A stretch of DNA of 64,000 nucleotides from Glutamicibacter nicotianae (GTDB lineage Bacteria; Actinomycetota; Actinomycetes; Actinomycetales; Micrococcaceae): the NCBI RefSeq assembly GCF_006539525.1, contig NZ_BJNE01000001.1, positions 496,001 through 560,000 on the forward strand, written 5' to 3'. Both the position numbers and the translations under genes were made by a program. This document shows positions 5,365 to 53,800 of the stretch, in pieces. The number at the start of each line of letters is the position of its first letter. Position 1 is the stretch's first letter. The notes under the pieces were generated by a model. The model did no database searches and was not told the DNA's origin. It worked only from the letters and a program-made list of their open reading frames with translations.

Positions 5365-6598
5365 TTAGCGCCAGAGACCGCGGGTGTCGATAACTTCCTT
5401 ACCTGCCAGCGCGGTTGCTGGAACGGACTTGAACTGATCATGGTCGACCAGCAAAGTAATGACGCTTGCCGATTCTAGTGCTTCTTCAGTGCTCACGAGG
5501 TTGAGGTTGTCGATGCCCGCAAGATTCTTAGGCAATGCCTCAACGTGAGGCTCTACAGCGAGGAACTCGACCGTTGGGTTGGCTTCGGCCAGCTTGCGAG
5601 CGATAGCAATCGATGGCGATTCACGCATGTCATCAATGTTGGCCTTGAACGCCAGGCCGAGAACCGCAACCTTGCCGTTGAAGGATGGGGCCTTGGTAGC
5701 TTCGACAACCTTGTCAATGACCCAGTTTGGCTTCGCATCGTTGGTATTGCGAGCCATGCGAATCAGCTTGGATTCTTCAGGAGCAGCCGAAACGATGAAC
5801 CATGGATCAACAGCGATGCAGTGACCGCCAACACCTGGACCGGGCTGAAGAATGTTGACACGTGGGTGGCGGTTTGCAAGGGAGATTAGTTCCCAAACGT
5901 CAATACCCAGCTTGTCGGAGATCACCGACAGTTCATTAGCGAAGGCGATATTGACGTCGCGGTACGAGTTCTCCACCAGCTTTGCCATTTCGGCAGTCAT
6001 CGCGTCGGTGGTGAGGATCGCTGCCTGGCAGAAAGTCTCGTAAAGAGCCTTGGCTTTGTCGGCTGCTTCCGGGGGTAATTCCGCCCACAATGCGGTCATT
6101 GGTGACCAGTTCTTCCATGACGTAGCCAGGAAGCACGCGTTCCGGGCAGTGTGCTACAAGCAGGCTGTCCTTGTTGAGATCAGGGCGCTTAGCCAAAAGG
6201 TAGTCGAAGAGGTGCTGGGTTGCACCTGGAGGCGAGGTCGATTCAAGAATGACCAGTTCGCCGCCCTTCAGCTTCGGAGCGATGCCGTCGGCTGCAGCCT
6301 CGATGTATGACAGGTCGGCGGTGTAGTCATCATTGAACGGTGTTGGCACGGCAACAATGTAAGCTTCAGCTTCTGGGGTATCAAAGCTTGCAGACAAGGT
6401 ACCGGCAGCCACAGCAGCGGAAACAAATTCACCCAACGCCGGCTCTACGAACGGCACCTCGCCCTTGTTGACCGCCTCTACAGTTCGAGGAGTTACATCT
6501 ACGCCTTTTACGGTGATGCCCTTCGAGGCAAGAATTGCGGCAGTTGGCAATCCGATGTAACCCAAACCGATTACGGCGACTTCTTTAATGTTGTTCAC
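5365..6598 (-). pseudogene. wecC: UDP-N-acetyl-D-mannosamine dehydrogenase, frameshifted
   Basis: Would oxidise UDP-ManNAc to UDP-ManNAcA. The first part (6598 down to about 6075) has the Rossmann motif VIGLGYIGLPTAAILA and the UDP-glucose/GDP-mannose dehydrogenase N-terminal domain through NDRIVGGITP. The rest continues in another frame from EAADKAKALYETF. It contains the central domain (AEMAKLVENSYRDVNIAFANE), the active-site region with its catalytic Cys (PGPGVGGHCIAVDPWF) and the C-terminal UDP-binding domain. The two halves rejoin exactly if one C is removed from the run of five at 6071-6075 (G on the plus strand). Otherwise all family motifs are intact, so this is a very recent lesion, a slippage switch or a base-calling error. 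Confidence 0.9.
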
Positions 6599-11734: not shown

Positions 11735-14700
11735 CTACTGTTTTGCATCAAATTCGTTCATGATTTGATTCAGTATTTGGTTAGAATCGTAGTTCTTGAC
11801 AGTGAACTCGCGTGCAGCCTCAACTTGGCGGGCCAGCTTGGCTTGATCCTGCACTTGATGGACCACGTATTGAGCTGCCGACTCCGTGTCTGCATGCAAC
11901 CACTCATTCGGGTACAACCACTCAGCGCCCGGCCAGGCCAGGCCCACCGGCAAGGCGCGAGATGCTGCGCCGTCGGCCAGAGTGAAATGGAAGGACTCGA
12001 AATCACTAGTCGAAACGGCAATACCGATACCTTGGTACCACTGGGCCATATCATCGCCTTGAGGATCGAAGGCAACTGCACCGCGAAGTAGGTCAGATTC
12101 TTCAATTCGGGCATATTGCGCCTCATAGAAGGCCATCTCTTCTTCGCGTGCAGCCATCCAAGGGTAATCCTCCGGGCGTTTGCCTTTGACGCGCAACGTG
12201 TATCGGCTGTCGATTGCCCGCAACTTTTCCAGTAGGTCCAGGACCAGGTCGAATCTTTTCATCTGCGGGACCATGCCAACAAAGCCCAAGACATATTGCG
12301 AGGCCTCGAACTTTGGAAGATCGAGTTTCTTGGTATCGACAGAGTTTGGAATGACTGTCGTCTTTTCCGCTGGAATTCCAAACTTATGAATCGCCATACC
12401 ACGAATCAATTCGCTGACAAAGATTACTTGGTCGACTTTCTTGAAGTCAACCGCCCGGGGATAATCGGTAAATAACTCTTGGGAGTGAAAACGCGTCACC
12501 AGCTTCTGCCCAGGTTTCAAGTGTTTTGAATACCACGCCAAGTTACCAAGCGACCATTCGCAGAACACGATATCCGCATCTTCAAGCAGGTCTAGACTTT
12601 CTTCAACATTGTGCTGAGCATGGCCGTCCCACTTATCGACCTTCAGATTGTGCCCGCGTTCGGAAATCTCGGCCATGATGGGTCCGGCAAACTTCAGGTC
12701 ATGTCCAACGACTAAGACGTTCTGCGAGTCTTCAGGTACATGATTCGTCGTTAGATTCTCTTCTGGTTCTTCAACAACAAGTGAGCGTCGAAGGCATATG
12801 GCTACATCAGCAGAACTTGAATTATTGCTAGTCCGGCTCAAGGTCGGCAATTGCGCTTCAGCGGGCTCACGCATCCACAGCGGCAAGCCCTTTGTACCCG
12901 CGTACTTATCGGAGACTTGCACCGTAGATACTTTCCCATAGAACATTGCGGTTAGCATATCTTCAAGGACCTGATGATCGCTAAGAACGTCTTGTACCCG
13001 AGTGGCGATTACATCGACTTCACGAGCGGCATTATTGCTCAGTACTTCAATCCCCGCTGATCTCAAAATGCTCAACGCAGGGTCATCCTCGCTGACATCG
13101 GTAACGAAAACCTGTGCAGGTCGGACACTGGCGGCTACAAGGTCCCGGGCAGTTTCCTCGGTCAGAGTCTCCAATTCAATGCCAAGTGTTGGCAAGGTCG
13201 GGATATCCACTGCGAGTCCAGCCATCCGTAGCGCCAAAGCAAGACGATGGTGTGCCAAATGCTTGCGGAAAGTCACACGTAGTGGCTCCCATGCATCGGC
13301 GACACGATCGGCTTCGGAATTCATCCACAGTGCTGAAATTAGTTCCGATTCCCGATTCGAAGCGACCACGGGAACTGAACCATCAAACATCCAAGTAACG
13401 CCGAAGCTCTTGCCGCTAATTACGGGAGTGCCACAGGCAGCAAGCTCGAATACCCGGCGGGAGAACATAGTAGGCGAGGCGTTCACTGAGTTCACGTTTA
13501 CGTGCACCGGATGCGACTTGTAAGCTTCCACCATTTCTTCATAAGTCAATCCGCCCTGAACGTACTCCTGCAAAGCTGGTGGGAACTTGTACGGCGAATC
13601 AGGATTGTCAGCCTGGCGATCATAGATAGTCAGACCCTGAGGACGTGCTCCTTCCAAAATTGCGCGCAGTTCCTTCGAACGCTCGGTATAACGATCACCG
13701 TAGTAGGAGCCACCGTACGCCACACTATGAGAATAGGCACGGGATGTTCCCAGAGGATTGTGGATTTCTGCTTGCGCCCAGAAGGAAAGGCTGCCCAACG
13801 CCTTGAGGTTTCCACCACGGTGATCCCAGTAGTCTTGCAAGCAATTGGCATCAGTCGTCAAAACAACATCGAAGTACTGTGCTGTGCCGAGGAATCGATT
13901 GAAATGAACAGGGTCTTCCTTATTCCAGAAGATTGTTGGGATGTTCTTGCTGCGGCAATATCCAATGAGCGCTACAAGATCCGCGCATTCCTCATCGTCA
14001 TAATAACCGACCTTGCGAGTCCAGGTTCCGTCATTCCCTGCCCACGCCGATTCTACAAAGAGAACATCGACAGGGTTTGACTCCAAAGTCGATCGCCAGT
14101 TTTCTGGAGTTGGCGAGACGACATTGACTTCGCGGCTAATGGTGGACGTAGTGAATTCGTCGGCAATTAGAGCCATGTGGATCTCGTCCAGCTTCTTGCC
14201 TACTGGCTTTCGGTTCTGGACGCTGCCAATTTGGGCAATGAAAGCTTCCGCGACGATCGGCCACGTACGATTCTCCACGGTCCACTTGCGCGCACGACGT
14301 CCCATGTCCTGCGCGGTCTTTGGATCTAGCGCCAATTGGGCAATCGCCTCGGACAGAGACTGTACGTTGTCCGCGTCGAAAAGCAGTCCACGAGTACTAT
14401 CGGCACCGAGCAGCGTAGCAATTGGCGATACATTGGAACCGATCACAGGACGCCCCGCGGCCATCGCTTCAATTGGCTTCAATGGCGATACGAGCTCGGT
14501 AACGATGTTCGATTTTCGTGGGCAGACCACGGCATCGAAAATTGCCAGGTAGTCGTTGATTTGCTCATTCGGTACGCGCCCGGTGAAACGAACACGCTCC
14601 TCTAAGCCCAGATCAGAAACCTGCTGCTTAAGTGCTGGCAAGACTGAGCCGTCACCGACGATCAGGGCGCCAACGTGAGACAGGGAATCGGGTAGCCCAG

Positions 14701-16171
14701 CTACCGCGTTAATCAGCAGATCCAAGCCTTCATAATCGACTAGGCTGCCCGCATAACCAAGAAGGAACTCACCCTTCTTTTTTCTTTCAACCACCCTCGA
14801 GCGCTCCGCAGGGAGCGGGACGTACTGGAAAATATTGGCAGCGTTCGGCAAGATTTCAATCTTGTCTCGTTGCGCGCCACGCTTCACCAGTTCTTCGCGA
14901 ACTTCTTCAGTAATCGCAAAGGCACGATCTGCTTCATTCGCCACCAGAGATTCAATGCGGCGGGCTAATTCGAATCGTTCCGAATGGTTCCAAGTCTCGT
15001 TGCCAGCAGCTGCGGTAATTTCCCACAAACCACGAACTTCATAGATGAACGGGATGCCAAGACGACGAGCAGCAATCAATGCCGGTAGTGCCGTAATATG
15101 GTTGGAAGCAGAAACGATCACAGAAGGTCGATTCATCATCGCTTCGCGAACGTAGATATCTGCCGCAATCTGCACAAACTTATCCAGTGGATCGTTACGA
15201 AGTGACACGCCTGGGTTGAAGTACGTATCGACGCCCTGGTACTTGCGCATAAGGCGCTTTTCCTTCGGCAACTTCTTGTTGACATTGGAGTCCCAAGGGT
15301 AGCCGGGGCGCGCTGCTACAAAGAGATCCACACCTGCTTCGGTAACAGCAGATGTGAGACCAGTCGTACGCGTTGAATATCCGTTGCTGTTGTACTCACC
15401 GGTGCTATGGGCGCAATACATCACCTTATCCGGTTGTGGCACATAGGCAGGTGTCGAGGTCTTCGGTGGAACTGCCGGCAGAGAATCGAGTAGTCGGGAT
15501 TGCCCCAAAATCTGATCGTGCATAGCGCCGAAGCTTGAAGGAGCCCCCTCTTCGTTGGCAAGCGCGCTTAATCTTGCCGCTGGTTCGACGATCTCACCCA
15601 AGTCACGATAGCGGGCTATATATGCATTGGCTTCGCGCTTAATAGCATCGATGAAACCATCCTTCGAACTAGGTACGTCTGAAGAAGGTGATGGAGCTAC
15701 GTTCGACGGACTGGAGGTGGCCTTTGGTGCCAAAGTATGGGGTAAATTCTGAACCGCCATGCGCGGAGGAACTTGTTTACGCACGAAGGGACTCTTCAAC
15801 CCACGCGCGGCTTTCACAACCGGATGGTTCTTTAGATTGTCGTAGGCTGATTTGAACTTCTCGGCCCGATTGCGTTCGTTCTCCAGTTGCTTCTTGAGGA
15901 TCGACGCTTCACGGCTAAACTTCTGTCGGGCGTCTTTGACAGACGATAATTCTCGTTCGAGCCTCGCGGTCAGCCCCTCAGATTTAACCTGGCGCACTCG
16001 GAGCTTCTCATTCTCAATCGTTAGTTTCGATATTTGTGCACGGTATTTCGCCAGATCATCGAGGACCCGTGTTTCAAAGTCACCGCCAAGATCAAGATAC
16101 TCTTGTCTAATGCTAAAGAGTTCGGCGCGCGAACTAATTGCTTGGGCCATATTATGATTCGATCGTTTCAA
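11735..16171 (-). CDS. Giant three-module glycosyltransferase (GT4 + CgeB-like + C-terminal GT-B)
   Basis: A 1478-residue cytoplasmic protein. Residues ~35-120 are a charged coiled coil (LTIENEKLRV, SSVKDARQKFSREAS). Residues ~240-640 are a GT4 module (YEVRGLWEIT, IEILPNAANIF, VDYEGLDLLI, ALIVGDGSVL, EAMAAGRPVIGSNV). Residues ~655-1000 are a CgeB-like module (VLFVESAWAGN, IPTIFWNKEDPVHF, FELAACGTPVIS). Residues ~1150-1478 hold another GT-B-like module (TVIPNSVDTKKL, LGFVGMVPQMKR, FESFHFTLADGAASRALPV). The start is TTG at 16171, since AGGGAG lies 8 bases upstream; the ATG at 16150 has no ribosome site. It resembles multi-domain transferases that extend a repeating glycan. Linkages are unknown. 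Confidence 0.85.
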   Translation of the reverse strand: MKRSNHNMAQAISSRAELFSIRQEYLDLGGDFETRVLDDLAKYRAQISKLTIENEKLRVRQVKSEGLTARLERELSSVKDARQKFSREASILKKQLENERNRAEKFKSAYDNLKNHPVVKAARGLKSPFVRKQVPPRMAVQNLPHTLAPKATSSPSNVAPSPSSDVPSSKDGFIDAIKREANAYIARYRDLGEIVEPAARLSALANEEGAPSSFGAMHDQILGQSRLLDSLPAVPPKTSTPAYVPQPDKVMYCAHSTGEYNSNGYSTRTTGLTSAVTEAGVDLFVAARPGYPWDSNVNKKLPKEKRLMRKYQGVDTYFNPGVSLRNDPLDKFVQIAADIYVREAMMNRPSVIVSASNHITALPALIAARRLGIPFIYEVRGLWEITAAAGNETWNHSERFELARRIESLVANEADRAFAITEEVREELVKRGAQRDKIEILPNAANIFQYVPLPAERSRVVERKKKGEFLLGYAGSLVDYEGLDLLINAVAGLPDSLSHVGALIVGDGSVLPALKQQVSDLGLEERVRFTGRVPNEQINDYLAIFDAVVCPRKSNIVTELVSPLKPIEAMAAGRPVIGSNVSPIATLLGADSTRGLLFDADNVQSLSEAIAQLALDPKTAQDMGRRARKWTVENRTWPIVAEAFIAQIGSVQNRKPVGKKLDEIHMALIADEFTTSTISREVNVVSPTPENWRSTLESNPVDVLFVESAWAGNDGTWTRKVGYYDDEECADLVALIGYCRSKNIPTIFWNKEDPVHFNRFLGTAQYFDVVLTTDANCLQDYWDHRGGNLKALGSLSFWAQAEIHNPLGTSRAYSHSVAYGGSYYGDRYTERSKELRAILEGARPQGLTIYDRQADNPDSPYKFPPALQEYVQGGLTYEEMVEAYKSHPVHVNVNSVNASPTMFSRRVFELAACGTPVISGKSFGVTWMFDGSVPVVASNRESELISALWMNSEADRVADAWEPLRVTFRKHLAHHRLALALRMAGLAVDIPTLPTLGIELETLTEETARDLVAASVRPAQVFVTDVSEDDPALSILRSAGIEVLSNNAAREVDVIATRVQDVLSDHQVLEDMLTAMFYGKVSTVQVSDKYAGTKGLPLWMREPAEAQLPTLSRTSNNSSSADVAICLRRSLVVEEPEENLTTNHVPEDSQNVLVVGHDLKFAGPIMAEISERGHNLKVDKWDGHAQHNVEESLDLLEDADIVFCEWSLGNLAWYSKHLKPGQKLVTRFHSQELFTDYPRAVDFKKVDQVIFVSELIRGMAIHKFGIPAEKTTVIPNSVDTKKLDLPKFEASQYVLGFVGMVPQMKRFDLVLDLLEKLRAIDSRYTLRVKGKRPEDYPWMAAREEEMAFYEAQYARIEESDLLRGAVAFDPQGDDMAQWYQGIGIAVSTSDFESFHFTLADGAASRALPVGLAWPGAEWLYPNEWLHADTESAAQYVVHQVQDQAKLARQVEAAREFTVKNYDSNQILNQIMNEFDAKQ

Positions 16172-16620: not shown

Positions 16621-17504
16621 TTACGCTGCCAGAGCGACAGACTCGATCATTGTAGCCTCGAATTGGATCGGGATCATTTTCCCCAAACCTCGTTGCTTGC
16701 GCTTGCGATGATACTTCCCCTTCAGCCATCCGATAATGGCCAGGCGAAGTTGTTGGCGCGAGGACCACCAGCGGCGGTCCAGCACGTTCTTCTGCAGCAG
16801 GCTGAAGAACGACTCCATGGCCGCATTGTCACCGGCTGCCCCGACCCGGCCCATCGAACCGACCAGCCCGTGACGCTCCAGCGCTTGGGTGAATTTCCTG
16901 GACCGGAACTGGCTGCCGCGGTCACTGTGGACTGTGACTCCGCGCGGGTGGCCTCGGTGCGCCACAGCCATTTCCACGGCGTTGACGGCCAGGTGGGCCT
17001 TCATCCTCGAATCAATCGAGTACCCCACGATCCGGTTACTGAACACGTCCTTGATCGCACACAAATACAGCTTTCCCTCGCTCGTGTCGTGCGAGGGTGA
17101 TATCGGTCAGCCACAACTCGTTAGGCCGCTCGGCGCTGAAGTTCCGCTGCACCAAGTCATCATGCACCGGTGGACCCGCCGGAACGTATTTACGCTGGCG
17201 TTTGCTGATCACTGAGCGGATCCCTGCCTTGCGGCATAATCGCCAGACCCGGCGCTCGGAAATTTGGTAGCCGGCGTCTTCCAGATCATCGGCCAGCACA
17301 CGGTACCCTCCCTCCGGGTCCTCCTCGTGAAGCTCGTGCAGTTTGCCGATCAACTCCCGCTCTTCGATTACCCGGGCGGAGACAGGGCTCTTCAACCACT
17401 TGTAATACGCTTGGGTGCTGAATCCCAAGACCCGGCACGTCACCGCTACTTCGAATATGTTTCCTGCCTGTTCTGGCGGCTAATTCTTGGACGAGCCGGC
17501 CCAT
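16621..17504 (-). pseudogene. IS3-family transposase OrfB, frameshifted twice
   Basis: Integrase-type (rve, DDE) transposase. From ATG 17504 the frame reads MGRLVQELAAR and then breaks at a run of three T at 17460-17462 (an extra A in the mRNA sense). It resumes as VTCRVLGFSTQAYYKW with the HTH_21-like GYRVLADDLEDAG segment. At about 17091-17096 a second one-base insertion moves NELWLTDIT out of frame. The remainder reads EGKLYLCAIKDVFSNRIVGY, then VTVHSDRGSQFRS and AAMESFFSLLQKNVL, giving the second Asp and the Glu of the DDE triad. The protein cannot be made as sequenced. Confidence 0.85.
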
Positions 17505-17794
17505 TATTTTGGGGAACGGATATGCGGCTGGGAGAGGTAGGCTGCGGCCTTGCGCAGCACCTCGTTCTCCATTTCGAGCTCCCGGATGCGTTTGAGCCCT
17601 TGGGACATTTCCTTGCGTTCGTCAGCATCGTAGGACGGGGTCATTCCGTGGGATTGGTAGCGGGCATCGCGGACCCAGGTTTGCAGTGCGGTCTTTGAGA
17701 CTCCCAGATCCGCGGAGACTTGCTTCTGGGATATCCCCGATTCGACGAGAGCGACGGCGTCCTTCTTGAATCCTTCGGTGAAGATTCTTGGCAT
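17504..17794 (-). CDS. IS3-family transposase OrfA
   Basis: A 96-residue helix-turn-helix protein starting MPRIFTEGFKKDAVAL, with GISQKQVSADLGVSKTALQTWV as the recognition helix region. A C-terminal leucine-zipper-like coiled coil follows (LKRIRELEMENEVLRKAAAYL). It binds the element ends and is normally fused to OrfB by frameshifting. The frame is open upstream to 17938, but the family start is ATG 17794. It is intact, while its OrfB partner is broken. Confidence 0.85.
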   Translation of the reverse strand: MPRIFTEGFKKDAVALVESGISQKQVSADLGVSKTALQTWVRDARYQSHGMTPSYDADERKEMSQGLKRIRELEMENEVLRKAAAYLSQPHIRSPK

Positions 17795-17804
17795 GTTTAT
17801 ACTG

Positions 17805-17945
17805 ATGCCGGAAATAGTGGTCCTGGCAATAATCAGCGGCGTGGCCCCGATCCTGACAGCGTTTATCGGTAAGCTGTCGTTCGATGTGGCTAGGACAAAG
17901 AAAGAGGCCGCTGCTGCCCGCGAGGTGAGATGCCCCAATAATTAG
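17805..17945 (+). CDS. Small membrane-segment protein, phage-like (tentative)
   Basis: A 46-residue frame: ATG at 17805, TAG at 17943. The N-terminal third is hydrophobic (VVLAIISGVAPILTAFIG), long enough for one membrane span. It is followed by a Lys/Ala-rich tail (RTKKEAAAARE). The pattern recalls very small phage proteins found near holin and tail genes, but I cannot name a family. No good ribosome site precedes it, and it starts 10 bases from the divergent OrfA. It may be a remnant of a prophage or simply a chance frame. Confidence 0.3.
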   Translation: MPEIVVLAIISGVAPILTAFIGKLSFDVARTKKEAAAAREVRCPNN

Positions 17946-18118
17946 ATGCGTATTGATCTCGCGTACACTGGGAAGAGGAGAAAGATCAATATGAACTGTT
18001 GGTGAATTATACATCACCATCTTCTACTTCAATTATATTTCGTCGAAGAAGTCGTAATTGATTTAAATATAATCTTAATAAATCTGGTCAGAAATTCATG
18101 ACACAACGGAGATACTAA

Positions 18119-20809
18119 ATGAACATCAATAACCCAGAGGCCCTGTTTCTGATCACTGATGAATTAGTCGTAAGTTCTATAGCCAAAACGGAAGATCGAA
18201 TTCGAGAATTCTTTAACGGCAATAGAATGGAAATTCCATCGTCCTATGGTCCCGTAAAGAATAACCCAGAAATATTATGGGGATCAGAACTAGATAGAAC
18301 TCGTGGTCGGTATTTTCATGGCATGTTATTTATGCATGGCTGGGCAGACTACATCATCAAGAATATCGATTACTCTGCCTATAAAGAGGCTGCCAAATTA
18401 ATTTTTTCTTGGCGAAAATTGAATCCTGTAGTCGAACTGGGCGCCTCGAGCATGGCTTATCATGACGAAACCACAGCACAGCGCCTGAATACAATAATGA
18501 GTATTATTTTGGCGGGAGTTAAGTTAAATGACAAAGATAGTCTCCAAGAACTTAAAAAAATTGCCCTTGAGACCAGTGATCTACTGGCTTCGACAGAATT
18601 TCACGCCGGACTGAATAATCATGGAATGTTTCAAGACATTTCTTTGCGTAATTATGCAGTAATCGCACGTTGGGATAACGACCAAAAAAGGTCTGATAAA
18701 CTTTCCATAGCGCTGGACAGGCTAGAAGAATATTTCATCCATGCGTTCACTGATGAGGGGGTTCACATTGAGAATACGCCGACCTACCATGTATTGGTTT
18801 CGAGGAATCTCCACAGCCATCTAAAGATTCTCGCGGCCCTAGAGATAGAGTCAGAAACGCTGATTGAGCTGTACAAAGATGCGGCAAATTATGCAACTTA
18901 CATTACAATGCCAAACGGTAAATTTCCGCCTATTAGTGACACAACCGTTGGTGCGCGCACTTCCAATCAACGGATATTTGACGAGTATTTTCTCTATGCT
19001 TCAAGTGCGGGAAAACTCGGTAAGGTGCCCGATCAAAATTCAGCGCTATTTCGCAAAAGCGGTTATGCAATATATCGTTCGGATTGGGCATCCGTAGACG
19101 CTACTTATTTACTCTTCCAAGCGGCATATAACGACAATTACCACAAGCACTCTGATGATCTCTCGCTCATCTTGTACTCGGCCGGACAAGAAATAATCAC
19201 TGAATCGGGCCCATTTAGCTATAATTACGCTGATCCCTATTCACGTTATGCGTATAGCCAATTTTCCCACAACTCAATAGTTGTTGATGGGAGATCCATT
19301 CCGAGAACTGACGATAAAAAGTCTTCTGTCTTGATTACAGAGTCACAAGTCACGGAAAGTAAATTTGAAGTGACGGGAGTAACTGGACGCCTTCGCGGTG
19401 TAGGGCACACGCGAACCGTTAAGGTCACTGGTCCCGTGCGTCAAGAAACAATTACTGTAATCGATTATCTAGACAGCGATGAGTCACATAATTATGAACA
19501 ATTTTGGCACCTAGCCCCGGGGTTAGAAGCTGTCATTCATGGCAATGGGTTTGAAGTCTTCAAAGGCTCAGATAAGATCTTAGATGCTTTCATTGAGACG
19601 GATTTCCCTATTAAAATTTCAAAAAAAATCGGTCAGACAAAACCAACCGTTGCCGGCTGGTCATTTCCAAAGTTCGGAAATAAAGTCCCAAGTGAAACAA
19701 TTTGCGTAACCTTTAATGCCTCGTCGAACGCAGAGCTCAAAACTCGATTCGAACTTAATTCGTTTTCATATGTAAACAGAGAACTGCATTCTAAATCCAG
19801 TCTCCATTGGCAGGTTGCATCAAGTGCAAGAAGGCTAAACTACCTTGAAATTAAGCCTAAATATCCAAATGAAGAGTACCCTTTAGTTTTTGTCTTTTCA
19901 GCAATGGCACCAGTAGGTAATTTTTCATTTAACTACAAAAATACATTAGATAATTCTAATGCTCACGTCTTCTATATATTAGATGACTTTGGAGACCAGG
20001 GGTCATACTATCTACAGGAGAAAGGCGATCTGTCAATTTTCCAAACTGTTCAGGATTTTATTCATAATCGCATTAAGAATTTAGCGAAAACTGGTCAAAG
20101 TATTATCTTTGCTGGATCATCTAAAGGCGGAACGGCTGCAATCATACATGGCCTGAGAGTCCCAAATTCAAAGATCATTGTAGGCGCTCCGCAGACTAAA
20201 ATTGGTTCATTCTTAAAGAAGCCTCATCCCAACGTCCTCAGATACATGACCGGCGGTGAAACGCAAGCACATGTGGCGCAATTGGACTCCTTGATGTATT
20301 CTCCCGAATTTACTACGTCAAGAAATTCTGAGATTTCGATAATTGTAGGAAAATCTGATCATCATTATAAGAATCACGTACTACCTTGGGTGGAATACGC
20401 AACATCACGCGGAATCGAGGTGGAGCTTATTTCGCTGGATGGGACACCTCATTCTGAAATAGGTAAACCATATCGCAGAATGCTTTTGGACAAGGTGCTA
20501 GGATTGTCTGAATCCGGCAGTCAAATAGAGTCACCCATTGAGTTGTGGACAGAACCAAAATCTGTCGTGGCATGGTTTGATAGAGTTTCCAAGCGATTAT
20601 TTGCATCTACTGCAGCTTTCGGCAACACTGAGTCGTCTTTTAGACTCTATCGAAATGAATCCTTGATTGACTCTGTGAAGTATCAAGAAGATAATTTTTC
20701 TTCATGGGCTGGTTTGCCTTCTGGTCGCTATCGAGTCCGAGGCTTCATACGTTCCTTTCCGGACAAGAAAGTATCGGCCGAGACGAGTGATTGGATCGAC
20801 ATCCCATAG
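18119..20809 (+). CDS. Heparinase II/III-like lyase fused to an Asp2/serine-esterase-like domain
   Basis: An 896-residue protein. Residues ~1-320 form the helical toroid of heparinase II/III-type lyases, with LNNHGMF at 165-170 (catalytic Asn/His candidates). Residues ~325-560 form the beta-sandwich half, with YHKHSDD at 341-347 and FSHNSIVVDGRS at 382-393, the usual lyase His/Tyr region. Residues ~590-790 look like an alpha/beta hydrolase with GSSKGG at 666-671 (nucleophile Ser668) and candidate Asp747 and His778. The last ~90 residues are Ig/Fn3-like. No signal peptide or membrane span is seen. GGAG lies 8 bases before the ATG. Codon use is clearly AT-rich compared with every neighbour, indicating transfer. 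It probably trims or de-esterifies the locally made polysaccharide. Confidence 0.8.
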   Translation: MNINNPEALFLITDELVVSSIAKTEDRIREFFNGNRMEIPSSYGPVKNNPEILWGSELDRTRGRYFHGMLFMHGWADYIIKNIDYSAYKEAAKLIFSWRKLNPVVELGASSMAYHDETTAQRLNTIMSIILAGVKLNDKDSLQELKKIALETSDLLASTEFHAGLNNHGMFQDISLRNYAVIARWDNDQKRSDKLSIALDRLEEYFIHAFTDEGVHIENTPTYHVLVSRNLHSHLKILAALEIESETLIELYKDAANYATYITMPNGKFPPISDTTVGARTSNQRIFDEYFLYASSAGKLGKVPDQNSALFRKSGYAIYRSDWASVDATYLLFQAAYNDNYHKHSDDLSLILYSAGQEIITESGPFSYNYADPYSRYAYSQFSHNSIVVDGRSIPRTDDKKSSVLITESQVTESKFEVTGVTGRLRGVGHTRTVKVTGPVRQETITVIDYLDSDESHNYEQFWHLAPGLEAVIHGNGFEVFKGSDKILDAFIETDFPIKISKKIGQTKPTVAGWSFPKFGNKVPSETICVTFNASSNAELKTRFELNSFSYVNRELHSKSSLHWQVASSARRLNYLEIKPKYPNEEYPLVFVFSAMAPVGNFSFNYKNTLDNSNAHVFYILDDFGDQGSYYLQEKGDLSIFQTVQDFIHNRIKNLAKTGQSIIFAGSSKGGTAAIIHGLRVPNSKIIVGAPQTKIGSFLKKPHPNVLRYMTGGETQAHVAQLDSLMYSPEFTTSRNSEISIIVGKSDHHYKNHVLPWVEYATSRGIEVELISLDGTPHSEIGKPYRRMLLDKVLGLSESGSQIESPIELWTEPKSVVAWFDRVSKRLFASTAAFGNTESSFRLYRNESLIDSVKYQEDNFSSWAGLPSGRYRVRGFIRSFPDKKVSAETSDWIDIP

Positions 20810-21092: not shown

Positions 21093-21630
21093 AAGTTGAA
21101 AACTGGACATAAACGGAACTCGAAAAGTGAACACTCTCAGAATAAGGAGTGTGATCACTTTGGAAGATTGGGCTTTGATCAGAAGGCTCGTAAAAGATGG
21201 AGTTCCCAAGTCGCGGATCGCCCGTGATCTCGGAATCTCCCGCACCACCGTTGTGAAGGCGGCAGCTTCAACCACACCGCCTAAATACGAACGCAAACAG
21301 CAGGCAACCGCGTTCGCCCCCTACGAAGATGCCGTACGACGTTTGCTGAAGGAAACACCGACGATGCCCTCAACGGTCATCGCTGAGCGGATCGGCTGGA
21401 CCGGATCGGTGCGCTGACTGCGTGAACACGTCGCGAAGATCAGGCCCGAAATGCGGCCGGCCGATCCGGCCGACCGCATTACCTGGTTACCTGGTGACGC
21501 CGCCCAATGCGACCTCTGGTTCCCACCGCAGAAAATCCCGTTGGGCCAAGACCAGGCCTCGTTGATGCCGGTGCTGGTGATGACCTTGGCGCACTCCCGT
21601 TTCATGGCGGCCCGCATGATTCCCAGCCGT
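21084..21630 (+). mobile_element. IS21-family element A, truncated 5' remnant
   Basis: Begins near the TG at 21084. Two related boxes at the left end, GAAGTTGAAAACTGGACA (21092-21109) and GAACTCGAAAAGTGAACA, are the repeated transposase-binding boxes usual at IS21 termini. Only the first third of istA remains. The right side is cut exactly where element B begins (21631), and no continuation was found beyond element B. Confidence 0.6.
21127..21630 (+). pseudogene. IstA transposase fragment (element A), nonsense codon and truncation
   Basis: The N-terminal helix-turn-helix is clear (LEDWALIRRLVKDGVPKSRI, ARDLGISRTTVVKA). At 21415-21417 a TGA replaces what should be a Trp codon (GWTGSVR then stop). 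The same frame then carries on as LREHVAKIRPEMRPADPADR and CDLWFPPQKIPL, up to FMAARMIPSR, where element B interrupts. The DDE core is lost, so it is inactive. Confidence 0.75.
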
Positions 21631-21673
21631 TGCTGAATAGCGTCAGTGGGTAGTGCTGTTCCGACGACTTGGT
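21631..21673 (+). repeat. Left terminal inverted repeat of element B
   Basis: The 43-base left end, beginning TGCTGAATAGCGTCAG and ending CCGACGACTTGGT. It matches the reverse complement of 24279-24321 at 35 positions. It lies directly against the broken istA of element A. Confidence 0.8.
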
Positions 21674-21778
21674 AGTACCGTTCCGGATACACGGTAGTGT
21701 CCAGGACTATTTCTTGATGGGCTGACCTGATCGCCGCATAATTCGATGCAGCGATCAGTTCAAAGGAGAAATACCTTG

Positions 21779-23363
21779 GTGGATTACCACGCCATCATGT
21801 CCTTGATTGCCAAGGGCCGAACTTATAGCGAGATCACCGCGTCGGTGGGATGCTCGTATCGCGACGTCGCTGCGGCCAAGCGCGCCATGACCGCAGCCGG
21901 CATCACCGAGCAGAGGCTGGCGTCCCTCAGCGCCGCCGACCTTCAGGATCTGTTCCCTGACCAGCGCAAAGCGGTTTCCGGGCAGTATGCGGATCCGCAC
22001 TTCGTTCAGGTGATTGAGCAGATGAAACACAACCGCTTCTTCACCCTGCAACAGGGCTGGGTCAACTATTTGGCAGGAACCAGCTCGGGGAAGAAATACA
22101 GCTACTCGCAGTACTGCGAACGCTTCAACCAGTTCGCTGAGACCACCGATGTCGTAGCGACCTTGCAGCACGAACCTGGCAAGGCGATGTTCGTGGACTG
22201 GGCAGGACCAACGCTGCCGTTGATTGATCCGGCGACCGGGGAGACTCGGAAAGCGTACTTCTTCGTGGCGTCCTTGCCGTATTCCGGGCTGGTGTTCTGC
22301 CAAGCGTTTGACACTATGAAGCGGGACTCCTGGAACCAAGCCCACGTGAATGCGCTGGCTTTCATCGGCGGGGTTCCCCAGCTGATCGTTCCAGACAACG
22401 CGCGCACAGCTACGCATAGGCCTCGAGGCAAGGACTCCGAGGTTGTCGTGACCGCGGCGTACCGCCAGCTGGCAGAGCATTACCAGTGCGCCATCGTGCC
22501 AGCCAGAAAGAAGCGTCCCCGCGACAAGGCACATGTTGAGCGGATGGTCCAGGCAGTGGAAACTCGAATCATCGGCTATCTGGCTTCCCAGTCATGGACG
22601 TGCTTGGAGGAGCTCAATGAGGCGGTGCATGAACGGCTGGTGGATCTGAACGACCGGTTGCGCCGGGTCAACGGGAGCACCCGGCGCGAGCTCTTCGAAG
22701 CCGAGGAAGCCGCGCTGCTGGCGCCATTGCCGGATGATCCGTTCGAATCGGTGGAAGACAAGCAGTTGAAGGTGGGTAGGAATTACCACGTCACCAGTGA
22801 CTACCAGCATTATTCGGTGCCCTACGAAATTGGCTGGGAAGATCTTGTCGGTGCGGATTACCGCGAGCACAGTCAGTGTGTTTGATGGCCAGGTCAAGGT
22901 CTGCGAGCATGCGCGCAAGACCGGTTGGCGCGGGCAGTATTCGACCGAACTGTCCCACGCTCCCGAGCATCATCAGCAAGTGCAGGGGTTGTGGTCCAGG
23001 GAATGGTTCGTGGCCGGAGCCAGGGTGTTCGGTCCGGCCACCGTCCAGGTAATCACGCAGATCCTGGACCGAAGCAAGATCGAGGCGCAAGCCTATCCGT
23101 CCTGCCGCAATATCCTTTCGGAGCTGGGCAAGAAGAAAGCGCTGCTCGAAGAAGCCTGCCAGGAGCTGCTGAACCTGAATGGTTACCCCACCTACACCTC
23201 GATCAAGCGGGTTATGGCGACGCTGGCCCAAGCCAAGGAGCGGGCCACCGCCGTGCCGCCGGCTCCGCAGAACGTGAAGGATTTGAGCGGGGTGCAGGAC
23301 CTGCCAGGGGTCTTCGTGCGGGATGCCGAACATTACCGGGGGTTCGGTGATCGCAATGTTTAG
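21779..23363 (+). pseudogene. istA: IstA transposase of element B, one-base frameshift
   Basis: The DDE transposase of the IS21 element. Start GTG 21779 (or TTG 21776) lies behind AAAGGAG. It has an N-terminal HTH (GRTYSEITASVGCSYRDVAA) and a catalytic core with AMFVDWAGP, LIVPDNARTA and KKRPRDKAHVER, which supply the two Asp and the late acidic region. Reading is continuous to about 22826 (HYSVPYE) and then drops out of frame. The rest (LAGKILSVRITASTVSVFDGQ through ACQELLNLNG and FVRDAEHYRGF) lies one frame over. Removing one A from the run at 22827-22829 restores VPYELAGKIL. Everything else is intact. Confidence 0.85.
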
Positions 23364-24123
23364 CAGTGAGGATCACCAGAAAATCAAGGAGCTTCGCCTG
23401 ACGGTGTTTGCCGAGAAGTTCTTCGAGTTGGTTCAGGATGAAGCCAATGACAAACTACTGCCTGAGGAAGTGTTCATGGCCGCGGTGGAGCATTCCTTAG
23501 ATGCACGCCGGTCGAACCGGGTCGACCGATTGATCAAGCAAGCTCGCTTTCCGCTGCCGCAGGCCTCGATTGCCGAACTGCATTACGGGCCGGGACGGAA
23601 GATCGATGAGGCGCGGATGAAACGCTACGCGATGCATCAGTGGCGGCATGATCCGACGAATTTGCTAATCATCGCGCCCAGCGGCGGCGGGAAAACCTAT
23701 GTTGCGTGCGCTATCGGCATAGCCGCCTGCCACAGCGAGCATTCGGTGATCTATATGCGGATGGACGTGCTGGCCAGGAAGTTGTTGATTGCCCGCGAGA
23801 ACGGGCGAGACCATGACGCGTTGTTGGAGAGATTACGGGAGGCTGACCTGTTGATCGTCGATGACTTCCTCACGGTGGGTTTGGACCAGAACATCGCCAG
23901 TGATGTTTACGGCGTGCCGGCGGATCGGGAGCACCGGCTGCCAACGGTGATCGCCAGCCAGACCGACCCGTCGTATTGGGTGCAAGTGATGCCAGACCGG
24001 GTGGCCGGGGATTCCATCGTGAACCGGTTGGCGAACAACACGAGATGGCTGCTGTTGGGAGATGCTGACATGCGCAAGTTGAAGCATGAGAAGGCGCGGG
24101 AGTCGGCTGACTTCTGGGAATAG
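23356..24123 (+). CDS. istB: IstB-like ATPase of element B
   Basis: A 255-residue AAA+ ATP-binding helper that activates IstA and guides target choice. The N-terminal helical domain starts MFSSEDHQKIKELRL. The P-loop is APSGGGKTYV (residues ~110-119), the Walker B is LLIVDDF, and sensor-type residues lie in VIASQTDP. ATG 23356 overlaps the istA stop codon, the usual coupling. The gene is complete and ends 198 bases before the right end of the element. Confidence 0.9.
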   Translation: MFSSEDHQKIKELRLTVFAEKFFELVQDEANDKLLPEEVFMAAVEHSLDARRSNRVDRLIKQARFPLPQASIAELHYGPGRKIDEARMKRYAMHQWRHDPTNLLIIAPSGGGKTYVACAIGIAACHSEHSVIYMRMDVLARKLLIARENGRDHDALLERLREADLLIVDDFLTVGLDQNIASDVYGVPADREHRLPTVIASQTDPSYWVQVMPDRVAGDSIVNRLANNTRWLLLGDADMRKLKHEKARESADFWE

Positions 24124-24178
24124 GTTTGCCGTCCGTTCCCTGAGGGCTCGTCCCGAGCCTTCTCCCTCATAACGTAGT

Positions 24179-24208
24179 GGCTCAGAACCTCTGAAGGGGT
24201 TCTGAGCC
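24179..24208. terminator. Hairpin downstream of istB
   Basis: Perfect 11-base arms GGCTCAGAACC (24179-24189) and GGTTCTGAGCC (24198-24208) with an 8-base loop, inside element B after istB. There is no T tract on the plus strand. It may end istB transcription or block read-in from outside. Confidence 0.5.
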
Positions 24209-24278
24209 GTTACGGAGCGCTGCTTCCGGCGCTACCAACTGCCCGGAATCGCACTATCGGGTAGCCGGAGTCCGTCCT

Positions 24279-24321
24279 ACCAGGTCGTCGGAATACAACT
24301 ACCAAGTGACGCTATTTGGCA
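24279..24321 (-). repeat. Right terminal inverted repeat of element B
   Basis: Ends with GACGCTATTTGGCA on the plus strand. Its reverse complement matches the left end at 35 of 43 bases, including the run CCGACGAC. Confidence 0.8.
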
Positions 24322-24787
24322 ACCGACCATCGTAGAAGACACGTCTTTGGGGCTGCCCAGCCCTCCAGAGTCATTCCGGGTATCACGGCATGGAAGCGTC
24401 TGCGCGAAAGTTCGCCTGCCGACCCAACCGCTTGGGTCTTGACCGGCTGAGACTTGCTCATCTTCGGCTTTCGTCTCAATGCTACGCATTGCCGACCAGA
24501 AGCTGAGACAATGCCGCAGCTTGCTCATGGTGGTAGCCATGAGCTCGGTTCGGAGGACTTTGCCCGCGCATCGTATCCAATGGACTTTTCGTGCTTCGGA
24601 CCAGCTCTACTCGGGTCGCATTGATGCGCTACCCGATCGTTACATCAGTGCTAGCCGATGCGCGCACAGGTGCTTCCAAATACGTCTCCTGTACACGTAT
24701 AAGCAACCCGGAAATCATGTCGCCATGTTCCTTGCCGCAACATCGGGAAACGTGCAGATTGTCTCGGCATAGTAGAGATACTTTACT
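24322..24787. other. Gene-free stretch right of element B
   Basis: No frame here has the length, start site or protein pattern of a real gene, on either strand. It does not continue the istA of element A, so element B and its right flank were probably brought together by rearrangement. GACTTGCTCAT recurs in part within about 70 bases, without clear meaning. Confidence 0.5.
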
Positions 24788-26569
24788 TCAGGAACGTAGA
24801 TACCAAAGCAATGCCGCATATAAATTCGATGACTGCCGCAGATGTACGCGGTGCGTTGGTTTTCTGTTTATTATCAAGTTCACAATGAGAGGATTGAAAT
24901 ATTTCGAAATCGATTCCATACCCGTATCGCTGACAAGCACTCTCAACCGTTTTTGAACTTCCGCATTCTGTGCAACTAGTCGTGGCGCTGTGTGCAAATC
25001 GTTTGCAATCGCAATATCACTACTGGAAGGTTTTTGAAAATAAGATTTCATTGTTTTTCTCGACCTATGATTGTGCTTATAAATTACCATCCTGGGTTCA
25101 ATGGATGGGTCGTATGTAAAATCAACCCTGCTGACAGGTCCACGCATCTCTTCGTAATACGGTTTAATTCGAGGTGAATCGAACGGTAACTTCATCAACG
25201 TAGGTTCAAATCGATTCATTAAGTCGAACAAAGGAAAGGCAGAGGCCTTTTCTTCTAAACTCGCTTTAAGGCCGAGGGCCAAGACATAGGGTGAATATAA
25301 AGGATCAAACCGTGCAACGAATGGGGACAAGGATCGCGTCGTCTCTCCCACGAAATATCGATTACGACCCACAATATAAGCTGCATCTAGTCGAGAATCT
25401 TCAGGAAGACCCCTCGTTATTCCGAAACTTATTAGATTGCTGAATCGATTAATTGCGAATTCATACGCAGGTTCTGAGATGAGTCTCCTCGACGGGAACT
25501 CACTAAATGCAGTATTGCCGTATATCCTCTTCATGGCTGTTGCTACATCGCCATCATAGCGCTGCCCTTTGTCAAATGCACTTCGTAAGAACTCGCCGTA
25601 CCCACCCGAGAATACGAGCTCATCGCCGAATTCGAGCATGGGGTGGGCAGGCCCAGAAAGAATCCCTGCGGTAGTGTCGAACGGCTGCGAAATAAAATCT
25701 TCAAAAGTATCCGGCTGTCCCATAGGATTCAATCCACTGTAATCTGTCATTGACAAATCGAATTGATTACTGAGTTGCCTTGAAATTATCTTATCAGGCT
25801 CGTTAATGTTTCCTGAACAGTAGAAGTTAAACTCAGTTTCTTTTCCCGAAGCAAGAAGCGCGCCCAAAACAAGACGTGAATCCGCGCCCCCGGTCAATTG
25901 AGAAATCTTCGCTCTCGAATTATGTGTACTTGCCGCCTCGATATTCTGAATGACATCGTTGGCGGCCTTATCCAACAACTCGTCATAAGAATATGAAGGA
26001 AAACTTAAGTTATCTAGAGATTTATATTCAACTTCATGAAATTCGTCAACGTCAAGAGATAAATACCGAAACGGCTCGATGGACCTCACGTTCATGTAGC
26101 TTGACTGCGCTAGACCTCCGGTGTTCGTTGCGACGTACAAGGCTGCGTATGTCAGATCCTTCTCCAGATGAATTCCTACAGTGCTCAACCCGTCCCTTAA
26201 CGAGGCCAAGTCCGAAGACACTGCTTTACATGCATCTGATTCATAAACATAAACTATTGATGAACCGAACGGGTCGCACAAAAGAATAATTTTCTGCGAA
26301 GGCACGTCAACAATATACACGGTGATGGACCCTTTAATACTCGCACCTAAGGATTCATAGTCCAGCTCAGTTTCATCGATGACGCGTTGCGCTTCACCGA
26401 TATTGCTAACCCATTTCCCATCTACCACACCAACTCCATGTACGGCGAAAACTATTGGCCGGGAAGCGCCGAGTCTAACCGAGGAATTTAGAATTCTATA
26501 TTGGTTAAAAATAGACCTTTCATGAACACTGGATGCTTTCAATTTTAGAACACATGGAGCGTTGTACAT
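24788..26569 (-). CDS. Asparagine-synthase-like protein without glutaminase Cys
   Basis: 593 residues. The C-terminal two thirds are an asparagine-synthase-type PP-loop ATP pyrophosphatase with the signature SQLTGGADSRLVLGAL (residues 223-238). The N-terminal ~170 residues have the fold length of a class II glutaminase (FGSSIVYVYESD, LYVATNTGG) but begin Met-Tyr-Asn. There is no Cys at position 2, so glutamine hydrolysis is unlikely. Such proteins in polysaccharide loci are thought to adenylate and amidate uronic-acid-type substrates, an inference here. GGAAAGG lies a few bases before ATG 26569. The gene is AT-richer than serA and lies next to the DUF6270-like gene on the same strand. Confidence 0.8.
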   Translation of the reverse strand: MYNAPCVLKLKASSVHERSIFNQYRILNSSVRLGASRPIVFAVHGVGVVDGKWVSNIGEAQRVIDETELDYESLGASIKGSITVYIVDVPSQKIILLCDPFGSSIVYVYESDACKAVSSDLASLRDGLSTVGIHLEKDLTYAALYVATNTGGLAQSSYMNVRSIEPFRYLSLDVDEFHEVEYKSLDNLSFPSYSYDELLDKAANDVIQNIEAASTHNSRAKISQLTGGADSRLVLGALLASGKETEFNFYCSGNINEPDKIISRQLSNQFDLSMTDYSGLNPMGQPDTFEDFISQPFDTTAGILSGPAHPMLEFGDELVFSGGYGEFLRSAFDKGQRYDGDVATAMKRIYGNTAFSEFPSRRLISEPAYEFAINRFSNLISFGITRGLPEDSRLDAAYIVGRNRYFVGETTRSLSPFVARFDPLYSPYVLALGLKASLEEKASAFPLFDLMNRFEPTLMKLPFDSPRIKPYYEEMRGPVSRVDFTYDPSIEPRMVIYKHNHRSRKTMKSYFQKPSSSDIAIANDLHTAPRLVAQNAEVQKRLRVLVSDTGMESISKYFNPLIVNLIINRKPTHRVHLRQSSNLYAALLWYLRS

Positions 26570-26671: not shown

Positions 26672-27403
26672 CTACTTTAAACCAGATAGTGATAGTTCGA
26701 TTTCTTTAGAAATCCATTCATATGCTGAATCCTGGTAATGAAACGGGGCTATTCCCCATTTATGATTTTTTGTGGATTTGGCCAGCTCTTCAGGCATTTC
26801 CAAAACGCTAAGGCCAAGACGCTTAAGGTGCTCTCCGTAACGCCTCAGGTGCCCATTCATCTCTTTAACGGTGAAATTTCTATAGCCAGGTACAGGTGCG
26901 CCTTCAATTGATTCTGCAGCCCATGGCGTATTGACAATTATTGTTTTGTCAAATAATCCAATGCTAGACAAATGGTCGACAAATCTGTTAGCCGCCCGTT
27001 CCCAGAAATTCCAATGTCGCTCAGTTCCTATTTGGATCACTCCGGGAATGGGATCGAGTTTATTCAGCAATCCTGACTGGATAAGTTCGGACGACCTGGT
27101 AACAAATGAATTATCCGGCAGCTTATGCACACCCAGGCGCTCATCAGTAAGGTCTATCAGTAAAAGATCCGCTTGCATAGAATGCTTTCGTAGCGTTCCT
27201 AATAAGTCTGATTTTAGATCCCCGTTTAGCATTCTCGATTGGAACTTCGAGTCAAGTTTTGCAGGTTCAAGCAATGTCGTGGGTTGGGTCATTGCGCTGA
27301 TCAAGCTTTGACGTGCTACATATGCCAAGAGTCTATGTTCTTGTTCCATAATGCTGAACGTATCCCGGCTGACGCAACTGCCATAGATGATTATTTCTGC
27401 CAT
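26672..27403 (-). CDS. DUF6270-like protein
   Basis: 243 residues. The N-terminus IIIYGSCVSRDTF followed by YVARQSLISAM is the hallmark I associate with DUF6270, a family of unknown function found in capsule and exopolysaccharide loci. The GSCVSRD motif has an SGNH-hydrolase-like look, with a possible nucleophile in the first strand-turn. LLIDLTDERLGV and a C-terminal PFHYQDSAYEWI would complete such a site. No signal peptide. TAGGAA precedes ATG 27403. It sits 102 bases upstream of the asparagine-synthase-like gene in the same direction, so a joint role in glycan modification is plausible. Confidence 0.7.
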   Translation of the reverse strand: MAEIIIYGSCVSRDTFSIMEQEHRLLAYVARQSLISAMTQPTTLLEPAKLDSKFQSRMLNGDLKSDLLGTLRKHSMQADLLLIDLTDERLGVHKLPDNSFVTRSSELIQSGLLNKLDPIPGVIQIGTERHWNFWERAANRFVDHLSSIGLFDKTIIVNTPWAAESIEGAPVPGYRNFTVKEMNGHLRRYGEHLKRLGLSVLEMPEELAKSTKNHKWGIAPFHYQDSAYEWISKEIELSLSGLK

Positions 27404-53094: not shown

Positions 53095-53100
53095 CTACTG

Positions 53101-53173
53101 TGCGCCCTCCGGGACTCGAACCCGGAACCTAATGATTAAGAGTCATTTGCTCTACCAATTGAGCTAAAGGCGC
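53101..53173 (-). tRNA. tRNA-Lys (anticodon CTT), copy 1
   Basis: 73 bases starting GCGCCTTTAGCTCAATTGG. The anticodon stem AATGA/TCATT encloses CTCTTAA (anticodon CTT). T-arm CCGGGTTCGAGTCCCGG. Acceptor pairs GCGCCTT with AGGGCGC; discriminator A; CCA not encoded. Confidence 0.97.
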
Positions 53174-53605
53174 TTCCTCGCTCTGACTAGTTCTTTTTCA
53201 GAACCCGTCATTGCGACGTAGACAATCATAGGCAGAAATGGCGCAAAAGCAAAAATCACCCAGCATCCAGTTCGCAAAGATAAACATCCAAGTCAGGTTC
53301 ATGTTATCACGACTACGCCGATGCCGAAGTAATCTAAAACACACAAGTTTTCACTTCGGCAATGCCCATTGCCATCGCGCACCGTAGTTGCATATTCAAT
53401 AACGCCGACCACCCGCTAGAAGTTCGCCATCGCGGTCGCTGCGCCGCGAGCCGCAAACGGGCACGAGTCGAAACGCTGATCCGCCCCGGCATTGCCAACG
53501 GACAAGCCCCGCGGCCGGTAAATTTCGGCCTGGCGCCATGACCGGAAGCGCAGAATCGCGCATGGTCAACAAAAAAGGCCAGACCGAAGCCTGACCTTTG
53601 TTTTG
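53174..53605. other. Intergenic stretch between tRNA-Lys copies 1 and 2
   Basis: No gene seen. It holds a loose inverted repeat CCGAAGT/ACTTCGG around 53322-53360 and, at its right end, the terminator of the second tRNA-Lys. The left part should contain the promoter for the first tRNA-Lys. Confidence 0.5.
53571..53598 (-). terminator. Terminator after the second tRNA-Lys
   Basis: In the minus sense AGGTCAG, a CTTCGG-type loop region and CTGGCCT form a hairpin followed by six T (A run at 53571-53576). Confidence 0.7.
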
Positions 53606-53678
53606 TGCGCCCTCCGGGACTCGAACCCGGAACCTAATGATTAAGAGTCATTTGCTCTACCAATTGAGCTAAAGGCGC
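53606..53678 (-). tRNA. tRNA-Lys (anticodon CTT), copy 2
   Basis: 73 bases identical to copy 1 throughout the mature sequence, with the same CTT anticodon loop and the same unencoded CCA. It has its own terminator downstream. Confidence 0.97.
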
Positions 53679-53727
53679 GTATTGATTTATATAAACAAGC
53701 TGTCTGGTGAACCGAACAAATTGTTCG

Positions 53728-53800
53728 TGCGCCCCCCGGGACTTGAACCCGGAACCTAATGATTAAGAGTCATTTGCTCTGCCAATTGAGCTAGAGGCGC
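53728..53800 (-). tRNA. tRNA-Lys (anticodon CTT), copy 3
   Basis: 73 bases, a variant of copies 1 and 2: GCGCCTCTAGCTCAATTGGC in the acceptor/D region and CCGGGTTCAAGTCCCGG in the T-arm. The changes keep base pairing (acceptor GCGCCTC with GGGGCGC by pair or wobble). Anticodon CTT is unchanged. Confidence 0.96.

Follow-up and report, generated by a model that had tools for sequence, protein, structure and literature searches.

A predicted cytoplasmic polymer-tailoring enzyme in Glutamicibacter nicotianae joining a heparinase II/III-type domain to a CsaC-type O-acetyltransferase domain

The closest described counterparts of the protein considered here, the product of a fusion gene in a 64,000-nucleotide stretch of the Glutamicibacter nicotianae genome (contig NZ_BJNE01000001.1, positions 496,001 to 560,000, referred to as the window), are O-acetyltransferases for its C-terminal half and heparinase-like enzymes for its N-terminal half. 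CsaC (also SacC) is reported to O-acetylate the serogroup A capsule of meningococci from acetyl-CoA, using a triad S114-D198-H228 and an unusual extension formed by Q138, H201 and Y79, of which Q138 was noted by the authors to recur in uncharacterised bacterial proteins; acetyl transfer to water was 52-fold below transfer to polymer, and the R148A substitution removed transfer to the polymer and kept transfer to water (PMC7501274). Asp2 is described as O-acetylating the N-acetylglucosamine (GlcNAc) of an adhesin while this is exported, and one of the paper's section headings credits it with acetylesterase activity in vitro (PMC5578698). On the other side, human DS-epi1 is described as an enzyme of heparinase-like fold that is biosynthetic and acts at the polymer level, DS-epi2 as that domain together with a predicted sulfotransferase; the same source, from 2020, gives three cases of polymer-level C5-epimerisation, namely alginate, heparin/heparan sulfate and chondroitin/dermatan (PMC8006597). 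In alginate, O-acetyl groups are reported to block epimerases, and the lyase AlgL to prefer the deacetylated chain (PMC4432689).

The reading frame of the fusion gene is undamaged in G. nicotianae and occurs once in the genome of 3.55 Mb, with a GGAG sequence at 18108-18111, 7 nt ahead of the ATG. No hydrophobic segment was found in the protein (best 19-residue mean hydropathy of 0.87 in residues 1-60 and of 1.03 over the whole chain), in agreement with an earlier note on this DNA that had seen no export signal, and the product is predicted to be cytoplasmic. With domain folds assigned by sequence-profile comparison, the fusion is probably a two-headed enzyme that tailors a polymer inside the cell, one of the heads being an acetyltransferase.

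The best solved relative of the C-terminal domain in a profile search against the PDB was SacC/CsaC (E 1.5e-22, residues 588-803), followed by the XcbB/CpsF-type chain 9hvz (5.6e-11) and Asp2 (PDB 6lnw, 2.6e-9). As CsaC is a solved enzyme of alpha/beta-hydrolase fold, the match supports such a fold in this part of the chain, in line with the earlier note. TALE repeat proteins among the PDB profile matches look like chance or composition and were ignored. Alignment of 43 sequences revealed that the residues corresponding to the CsaC active site are widely kept: S668 (CsaC S114) in 42, Q692 (Q138) and D747 (D198) in 39 each, Y630 (Y79) in 38 and H778 (H228) in 37, with CsaC H228 aligning one column beside H778. 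H749, present in 40 of the 43, lies one residue off the aligned place of CsaC H201, and S667, a serine in 37, stands at the place of the acceptor-contacting serine S113. S668 lies within the motif GSSKGG of the domain, which had been called an Asp2/XcbB-like serine hydrolase; the serine-hydrolase character holds, while the family names fall short, the scores of 19 bits for Pfam Asp2 (PF16929, gathering score 28) and 40.6 bits for NCBIfam XcbB_CpsF (NF033892, curated cut-off 125) meaning that the domain is not filed by name in either family. Addition of acetyl groups is the most likely activity of this half, given that the relatives closest to it with a tested function are acetyltransferases and that it retains the residues particular to CsaC; some esterase activity on the side is a further possibility. 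In Staphylococcaceae relatives (L045:9893-12307 and L057; such labels denote loci) the acetyltransferase half of the fusion is found without H778 and Q692, and a second acetyltransferase gene near these degenerate fusions (in L045 at L045:12390-13352) keeps the glutamine and the serine.

The N-terminal half was assigned to the heparinase II/III type, as had been proposed earlier. Pfam Hepar_II_III_C matched residues 305-540 with 92.1 bits (cut-off 24) and Hepar_II_III_N scored 20.4 bits, slightly under its cut-off of 22; a profile of 32 relatives aligned heparinase III from the PDB with residues 26-512 (E about 1e-21), and nine sequences covering the catalytic strand region gave a sub-profile that matched alginate lyases and heparinases. 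R60, R64, D116, E117, R122, N167, H168, E218, Y223, H224, D274 and R320 are invariant in all 39 sequences compared, and Y341, H342, H344, Y368 and H384 are kept in 38, the odd row being truncated; conservation of the active site is equal in fused and in single-headed, lyase-only relatives. N167, Y223 and H342 align with chain positions 216, 270 and 400 of 4mmh, which we take to be the catalytic N240, Y294 and H424 (offset 24). For DS-epi1, a His/double-Tyr motif of H205, Y261 and Y473 with metal ligands H452, E470 and N481 is described (PMC8006597), and H168, Y223, Y368, H344, E362 and H384 are candidate counterparts of these residues by order and motif only. The remainder of the lyase C-terminal domain, referred to as mid, is also found in some stand-alone acetyltransferase relatives (L058, L038 and L039).

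The C-terminal tail, previously described as Ig-like, is a conserved module, the Ig-like name having been given by eye with no library match behind it. Hidden-Markov searches located the same tail on hexapeptide-type acyltransferases (among others L017, L024, L032, L100 and L106, where the Pfam hexapeptide match was verified in L024 alone), on large DUF6270 proteins (L017, L028, L032 and L034), on the lyase-only relatives L030, L033 and L072 and on some acetyltransferase-only relatives (L079 and L080). Sharing of one tail by several enzymes of these loci suggests a polymer-binding module. In three of the hexapeptide-type acyltransferases (L024:15196-16197, L100:11663-12655 and L106:14106-15104) the tail lies near the N-terminus.

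The pairing of the two halves had been regarded as one for which no described enzyme was known. It is not unique: a scan of 84,980 species genomes, which required an exact match to one of six short peptides and is not exhaustive, yielded 41 loci, 18 of which carry both strong domains in one open reading frame (ORF), with hosts among Actinomycetota, Bacillota (Neobacillus, Jeotgalicoccus and Salinicoccus) and Pseudomonadota (Paraburkholderia), and a further fusion lies on a Caballeronia plasmid. Top-ranked open-licence literature matches gave no description of the pairing. Within the family, 31 of 295 genomes matched at E up to 1e-20, comprising 12 fused forms (the G. nicotianae one included), five lyase-only, eight acetyltransferase-only, two pairs of split neighbours and four distant lyases. 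In a phylum sample, 12 of 396 genomes matched at E up to 1e-10 and only G. nicotianae's own was full-length, so the fusion appears uncommon outside the family; in the genus set one of the 17 other genomes (G411) matched at E up to 1e-30, with the second half only. Neither viral contigs, in a search suited to close relatives only, nor phage sequences yielded a carrier, and viral or phage carriage was set aside.

At least five changes of architecture are needed on the phylogenetic trees of each half, four being forced by strongly supported branches in the lyase tree and two in the acetyltransferase tree. The lyase tree omitted two of the 39 rows, one of them truncated and the other the lyase part of a broken fusion, and the acetyltransferase tree left out five of 43 rows (three fragments, one far row and one degenerate row). 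Kocuria loci L038 and L039 have the two halves as adjoining genes with a 4-base overlap, the acetyltransferase coming first. The acetyltransferase-only protein of L058, from the same genus, falls with 11 fusions in a 12-row group (support 94/92, not starred, root not inferred). This placement, together with its retained lyase mid part, suggests a former fusion from which the lyase head has been lost.

Gene neighbourhoods link the fusion to polysaccharide biosynthesis. A large GT4 glycosyltransferase of about 1480 residues occurs in 26 of the 31 family genomes with a match and in 22 of the 264 without (Fisher p 2e-19, an overstated value since related genomes are not independent); the matches that lack it are G411 and the four distant lyases. 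Neighbours were counted in 28 strong loci of the species-genome scan and in 19 family loci, two sets that share genomes: the fusion-family gene and the large glycosyltransferase overlap or lie at most 182 bases apart in 8 and 11 of these, respectively, a wecB- or wecC-like gene is present in the examined stretch in 19 and 16, and ATP-binding cassette (ABC) exporter genes in 14 and 11. The Caballeronia plasmid locus carries wecB, wecC, an ABC permease and ATPase, a chain-length gene and an export gene. In the G. nicotianae genome, a TagH-like ATPase and a Wzm-like permease, both below NCBIfam cut-offs, are encoded at C1:463-465 kb next to a LytR-CpsA-Psr gene; this site is outside the fusion's locus, at a distance of about 50 kb. 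ABC-type export implies that the chain is finished in the cytoplasm. The frequency of wecB/wecC-like and ABC exporter genes suggests a cytoplasm-made polymer of the N-acetylmannosaminuronic acid (ManNAcA) type as the locus product, and both domains very probably act on it, in line with the earlier idea of one shared uronic-acid polymer. One guess is that the substrate resembles the teichuronic acid of Micrococcus luteus, described as 4-linked ManNAcA and 6-linked glucose (PMC3005890). A polymer with N-acetylgulosaminuronic acid (GulNAcA) would not be outlandish either, as GulNAcA with amide-linked glycine is known from the Vibrio polysaccharide VPS (PMC3901696). The Caballeronia polymer locus (L107:12659-21711) also contains a very large polyketide synthase gene and a gene of the lipoteichoic acid (LTA) synthase family.

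Briefly, the glycosyltransferases of the locus would assemble, within the cytoplasm, a surface polymer of ManNAcA type (4-linked uronate), and the N-terminal domain would abstract the C5 proton of a uronate. Return of the proton on the other face would convert ManNAcA to L-GulNAcA, a C5-epimerisation that is judged just probable for this domain and is preferred to chain cutting, a serious but lesser prospect. The C-terminal domain would load acetyl from acetyl-CoA onto S668 and acetylate a hydroxyl of that chain, an N-acetylated sugar being the probable site. The chain would probably be gripped by the tail and then exported by an ABC transporter, in this strain presumably as elsewhere. The substrate and the direction and order of the two reactions are likewise presumed. 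In full, the protein would be an epimerase acting on uronosyl C5 at the polymer level, of heparinase II fold and located in the bacterial cytoplasm, joined to an O-acetyltransferase of CsaC type on the plan of DS-epi2; this complete proposal is offered tentatively.

Single-headed relatives bear on the choice between epimerase and lyase. A strong domain of this acetyltransferase kind is absent near the lyase in the five lyase-only family loci, other acetyltransferase kinds not having been sought, and in three of these (L094, L098 and L099) the large glycosyltransferase lies within 182 bases of the lyase; a chain-preserving enzyme fits such loci better because a cutter would destroy the unprotected chain. 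These loci count against the alternative that the N-domain is a beta-eliminating lyase which cuts unacetylated chains, so that acetylated chains survive or chain length is set, as do the acetyltransferase-only loci L100-L105 (six of the eight such genomes), in which no lyase domain is found nearby. Unsaturated-uronyl hydrolases of family GH88 were found in none of 12 fusion genomes and in 3 of 14 control genomes, which was counted for an epimerase over a lyase, though GH88 need not act on this sugar. Cutting is nonetheless consistent with the retention of all lyase-type residues and with the solved relatives matched, which are lyases, and the effects of acetyl groups in alginate (PMC4432689) would give the joined activities a patterning role whether the N-domain is an epimerase or a lyase. 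Selective cutting is considered unlikely but far from negligible, and it overlaps with the lyase version of the tailoring enzyme itself. The earlier suggestion that the fusion sets chain length by cleavage keeps a place, with C5-epimerisation explaining the loci at least as well.

The same note had suggested that the C-terminal half could strip acyl groups off the polymer that the lyase cuts, as an esterase working ahead of the cutting or along with it. The serine-hydrolase triad is present, CsaC hydrolyses some acetyl-CoA without an acceptor (PMC7501274) and an in vitro acetylesterase activity appears in a section heading on Asp2 (PMC5578698). However, the closest functionally tested relatives, CsaC and Asp2, are O-acetyltransferases, the CsaC-type glutamine and tyrosine are kept, acetyl-CoA is available in the cytoplasm where the protein is predicted to reside, and deacetylation in a biosynthetic locus would undo a modification, so acyl removal is improbable. 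Degradation of imported oligosaccharides accords with the mostly catabolic nature of heparinase and alginate-lyase families, but those neighbours that could be labelled, a part of the total, fall among nucleotide-sugar, glycosyltransferase and export genes, and GH88 was absent from all 12 fusion genomes, leaving a catabolic role very improbable.

Several observations weigh against a tailoring epimerase-acetyltransferase. Three PDB sequence searches returned no epimerase-named entry among their matches, and the solved relatives of this domain are named lyases or heparinases; all catalytic residues of DS-epi1 are reported to be conserved in heparinase II (PMC8006597), and no sequence feature appears to separate epimerase from lyase. 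In the C-domain, no counterpart of CsaC R148 was found, the aligned position, P702, being a variable column of the 43-sequence alignment; the role of R148 may be specific to the acceptor of CsaC. The acetyltransferase half is degenerate in L031, L037, L045 and L057, 22 family genomes have the large glycosyltransferase and no member of the fusion family, and nine of the 28 strong loci carry neither wecB nor wecC in the examined stretch. In the window, wecC and the glycosyltransferase that corresponds to the 637-residue type are each split by a frameshift relative to the intact same-genus locus L108, and the only other wecC-like gene in the genome is 28% identical. Because two genes of the locus are frameshifted, the pathway may be decaying or inactive in this strain, or the breaks may be assembly errors. 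Despite these points, the tailoring enzyme with an acetyltransferase head is retained as the probable reading. The features of the locus are collected in Table 1.

Table 1. Features of the fusion gene and of the surrounding locus (window coordinates)
Feature	Position	Strand	Basis or remarks
wecB, UDP-GlcNAc 2-epimerase	4154..5338	-	NCBIfam
wecC, UDP-ManNAc dehydrogenase, frameshift-broken	5365..6598	-	NCBIfam and comparison with intact locus
Two GT4 glycosyltransferases, 610 and 394 aa	6730..9670	-	NCBIfam
Glycosyltransferase in two pieces, 429 + 231 aa	9712..11624	-	637 aa in same-genus relative
1478-aa multi-domain GT4 glycosyltransferase	11735..16171	-	Pfam; in relatives, the most frequent of the neighbours found beside the fusion
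IS3-type transposase remnants, left of fusion	16621..17938	-	Pfam and nucleotide match
Whole fusion gene, 896 aa	18119..20809	+	ORF, ATG start; sole copy in genome
Heparinase II/III-like catalytic part, residues 1-420	18119..19378	+	N167, H168, Y223, Y341-H342-K-H344, E362, Y368, H384
Mid, remainder of lyase C-terminal domain, residues 421-580	19379..19858	+	Hidden-Markov search
CsaC-like O-acetyltransferase domain (predicted), residues 582-800	19862..20518	+	Y630, S668, Q692, D747, H749, H778
Ig-like tail module, residues 818-896	20570..20806	+	Hidden-Markov search; also present on further enzymes of these loci
IS21-type remnants (istA/istB pieces), right of fusion	21115..24323	+	Pfam
593-aa protein, TGGADSR motif, AT-rich like fusion	24788..26569	-	Homologues near some fusions
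DUF6270 protein, AT-rich like fusion	26672..27403	-	Pfam; homologues in a good part of these loci

The fusion gene stands out from its surroundings in composition, as the description of an AT-rich gene had implied: its GC content is 42% (39% at third positions), against 58-59% (68-75% at third positions) for the flanking insertion sequence (IS) genes and serA, with 50-53% GC in the glycosyltransferase cluster to its left. The genes for the 593-residue and DUF6270 proteins are similar (44% and 43% at third positions), and from this shared AT-rich composition the three genes appear to have arrived together and to have been parted later by the IS21-type elements. The IS21-type region has 50-nt inverted arms at 21629-21678 and 24274-24323. 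A Glutamicibacter plasmid matches 15% of the IS-region query at 91%, on which a proteobacterial origin of the window, suggested at first by a Caballeronia match and by XrtA-type names of glycosyltransferases, was rejected. No Pfam or NCBIfam match was obtained for the 593-residue protein, and its sole, weak PDB match was a hydroxyamidotransferase (E 0.013), by which it is possibly amidotransferase-like and an amidating enzyme for uronates. Its motif TGG.DSR is invariant in six aligned homologues, and homologues lie near fusions in L026, L027 and L091. DUF6270 proteins recur in L017, L028, L032, L034 and L101-L105, some within a longer protein that bears this Ig-like tail or gives a weak acetyltransferase-domain match. 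Elsewhere in the window, three tRNA-Lys (ctt) genes stand in a row at 53100-53800.

Heparinase II/III-type genes sit within the polysaccharide biosynthesis loci examined here, and no assigned role for them in such loci was found among the top-ranked open-licence literature matches. Because the domain is fused to an acetyltransferase here, and because nature offers fused, split and single-headed versions in comparable loci, whether it cuts or epimerises can be tested directly. Should the N-domain be an epimerase, polymer-level C5-epimerisation would extend to a bacterial cytoplasmic pathway and the protein would be a compact tool for patterned acidic polymers. Such an enzyme would set, in one pass before ABC export, where a wall or capsule polymer of ManNAcA/GulNAcA is epimerised and where it is acetylated, and either head would be removable in evolution to give new polymer types.

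Compared with CsaC/SacC of Neisseria meningitidis serogroup A (PDB 6yuo and 6yus), the C-terminal half shares homology over residues 588-803, the Ser-Asp-His triad with its glutamine and tyrosine, and the serine (S113 in CsaC, S667 here) by which CsaC touches the N-acetyl group of its acceptor, whereas CsaC is a single-domain enzyme that acts on an N-acetylmannosamine (ManNAc)-phosphate polymer through an arginine, R148, that is unmatched in the fusion. Asp2 of the accessory Sec system has a related O-acetyltransferase domain and couples modification to export, as is proposed for the fusion, but it acts on GlcNAc of a glycoprotein, and the fusion misses the Pfam cut-off of its family. The N-domain resembles heparinase III (PDB 4mmh and 5jmd) and alginate lyases (6jp4 and the PL17 enzyme 7bm6) in its Asn, Tyr and His active-site positions; these enzymes, in contrast, are known as degradative lyases, and heparinase III has a glutamine where the fusion has the second histidine of the H-x-H motif. 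The alginate set of AlgG (epimerase), AlgL (lyase) and AlgX (O-acetyltransferase) performs the same chemistries on an acidic polymer, with acetylation limiting both epimerase and lyase, but as separate proteins. AlgG and the alginate acetylation machinery are periplasmic, and their folds differ from those of the fusion. DS-epi1 and DS-epi2 differ in their Golgi location, chondroitin substrate and use of sulfate in place of acetate, and no sequence similarity between them and the fusion was found, but DS-epi2 follows the same plan, a C5-chemistry and a chain-decorating transferase in one chain, and is the analogous fusion.

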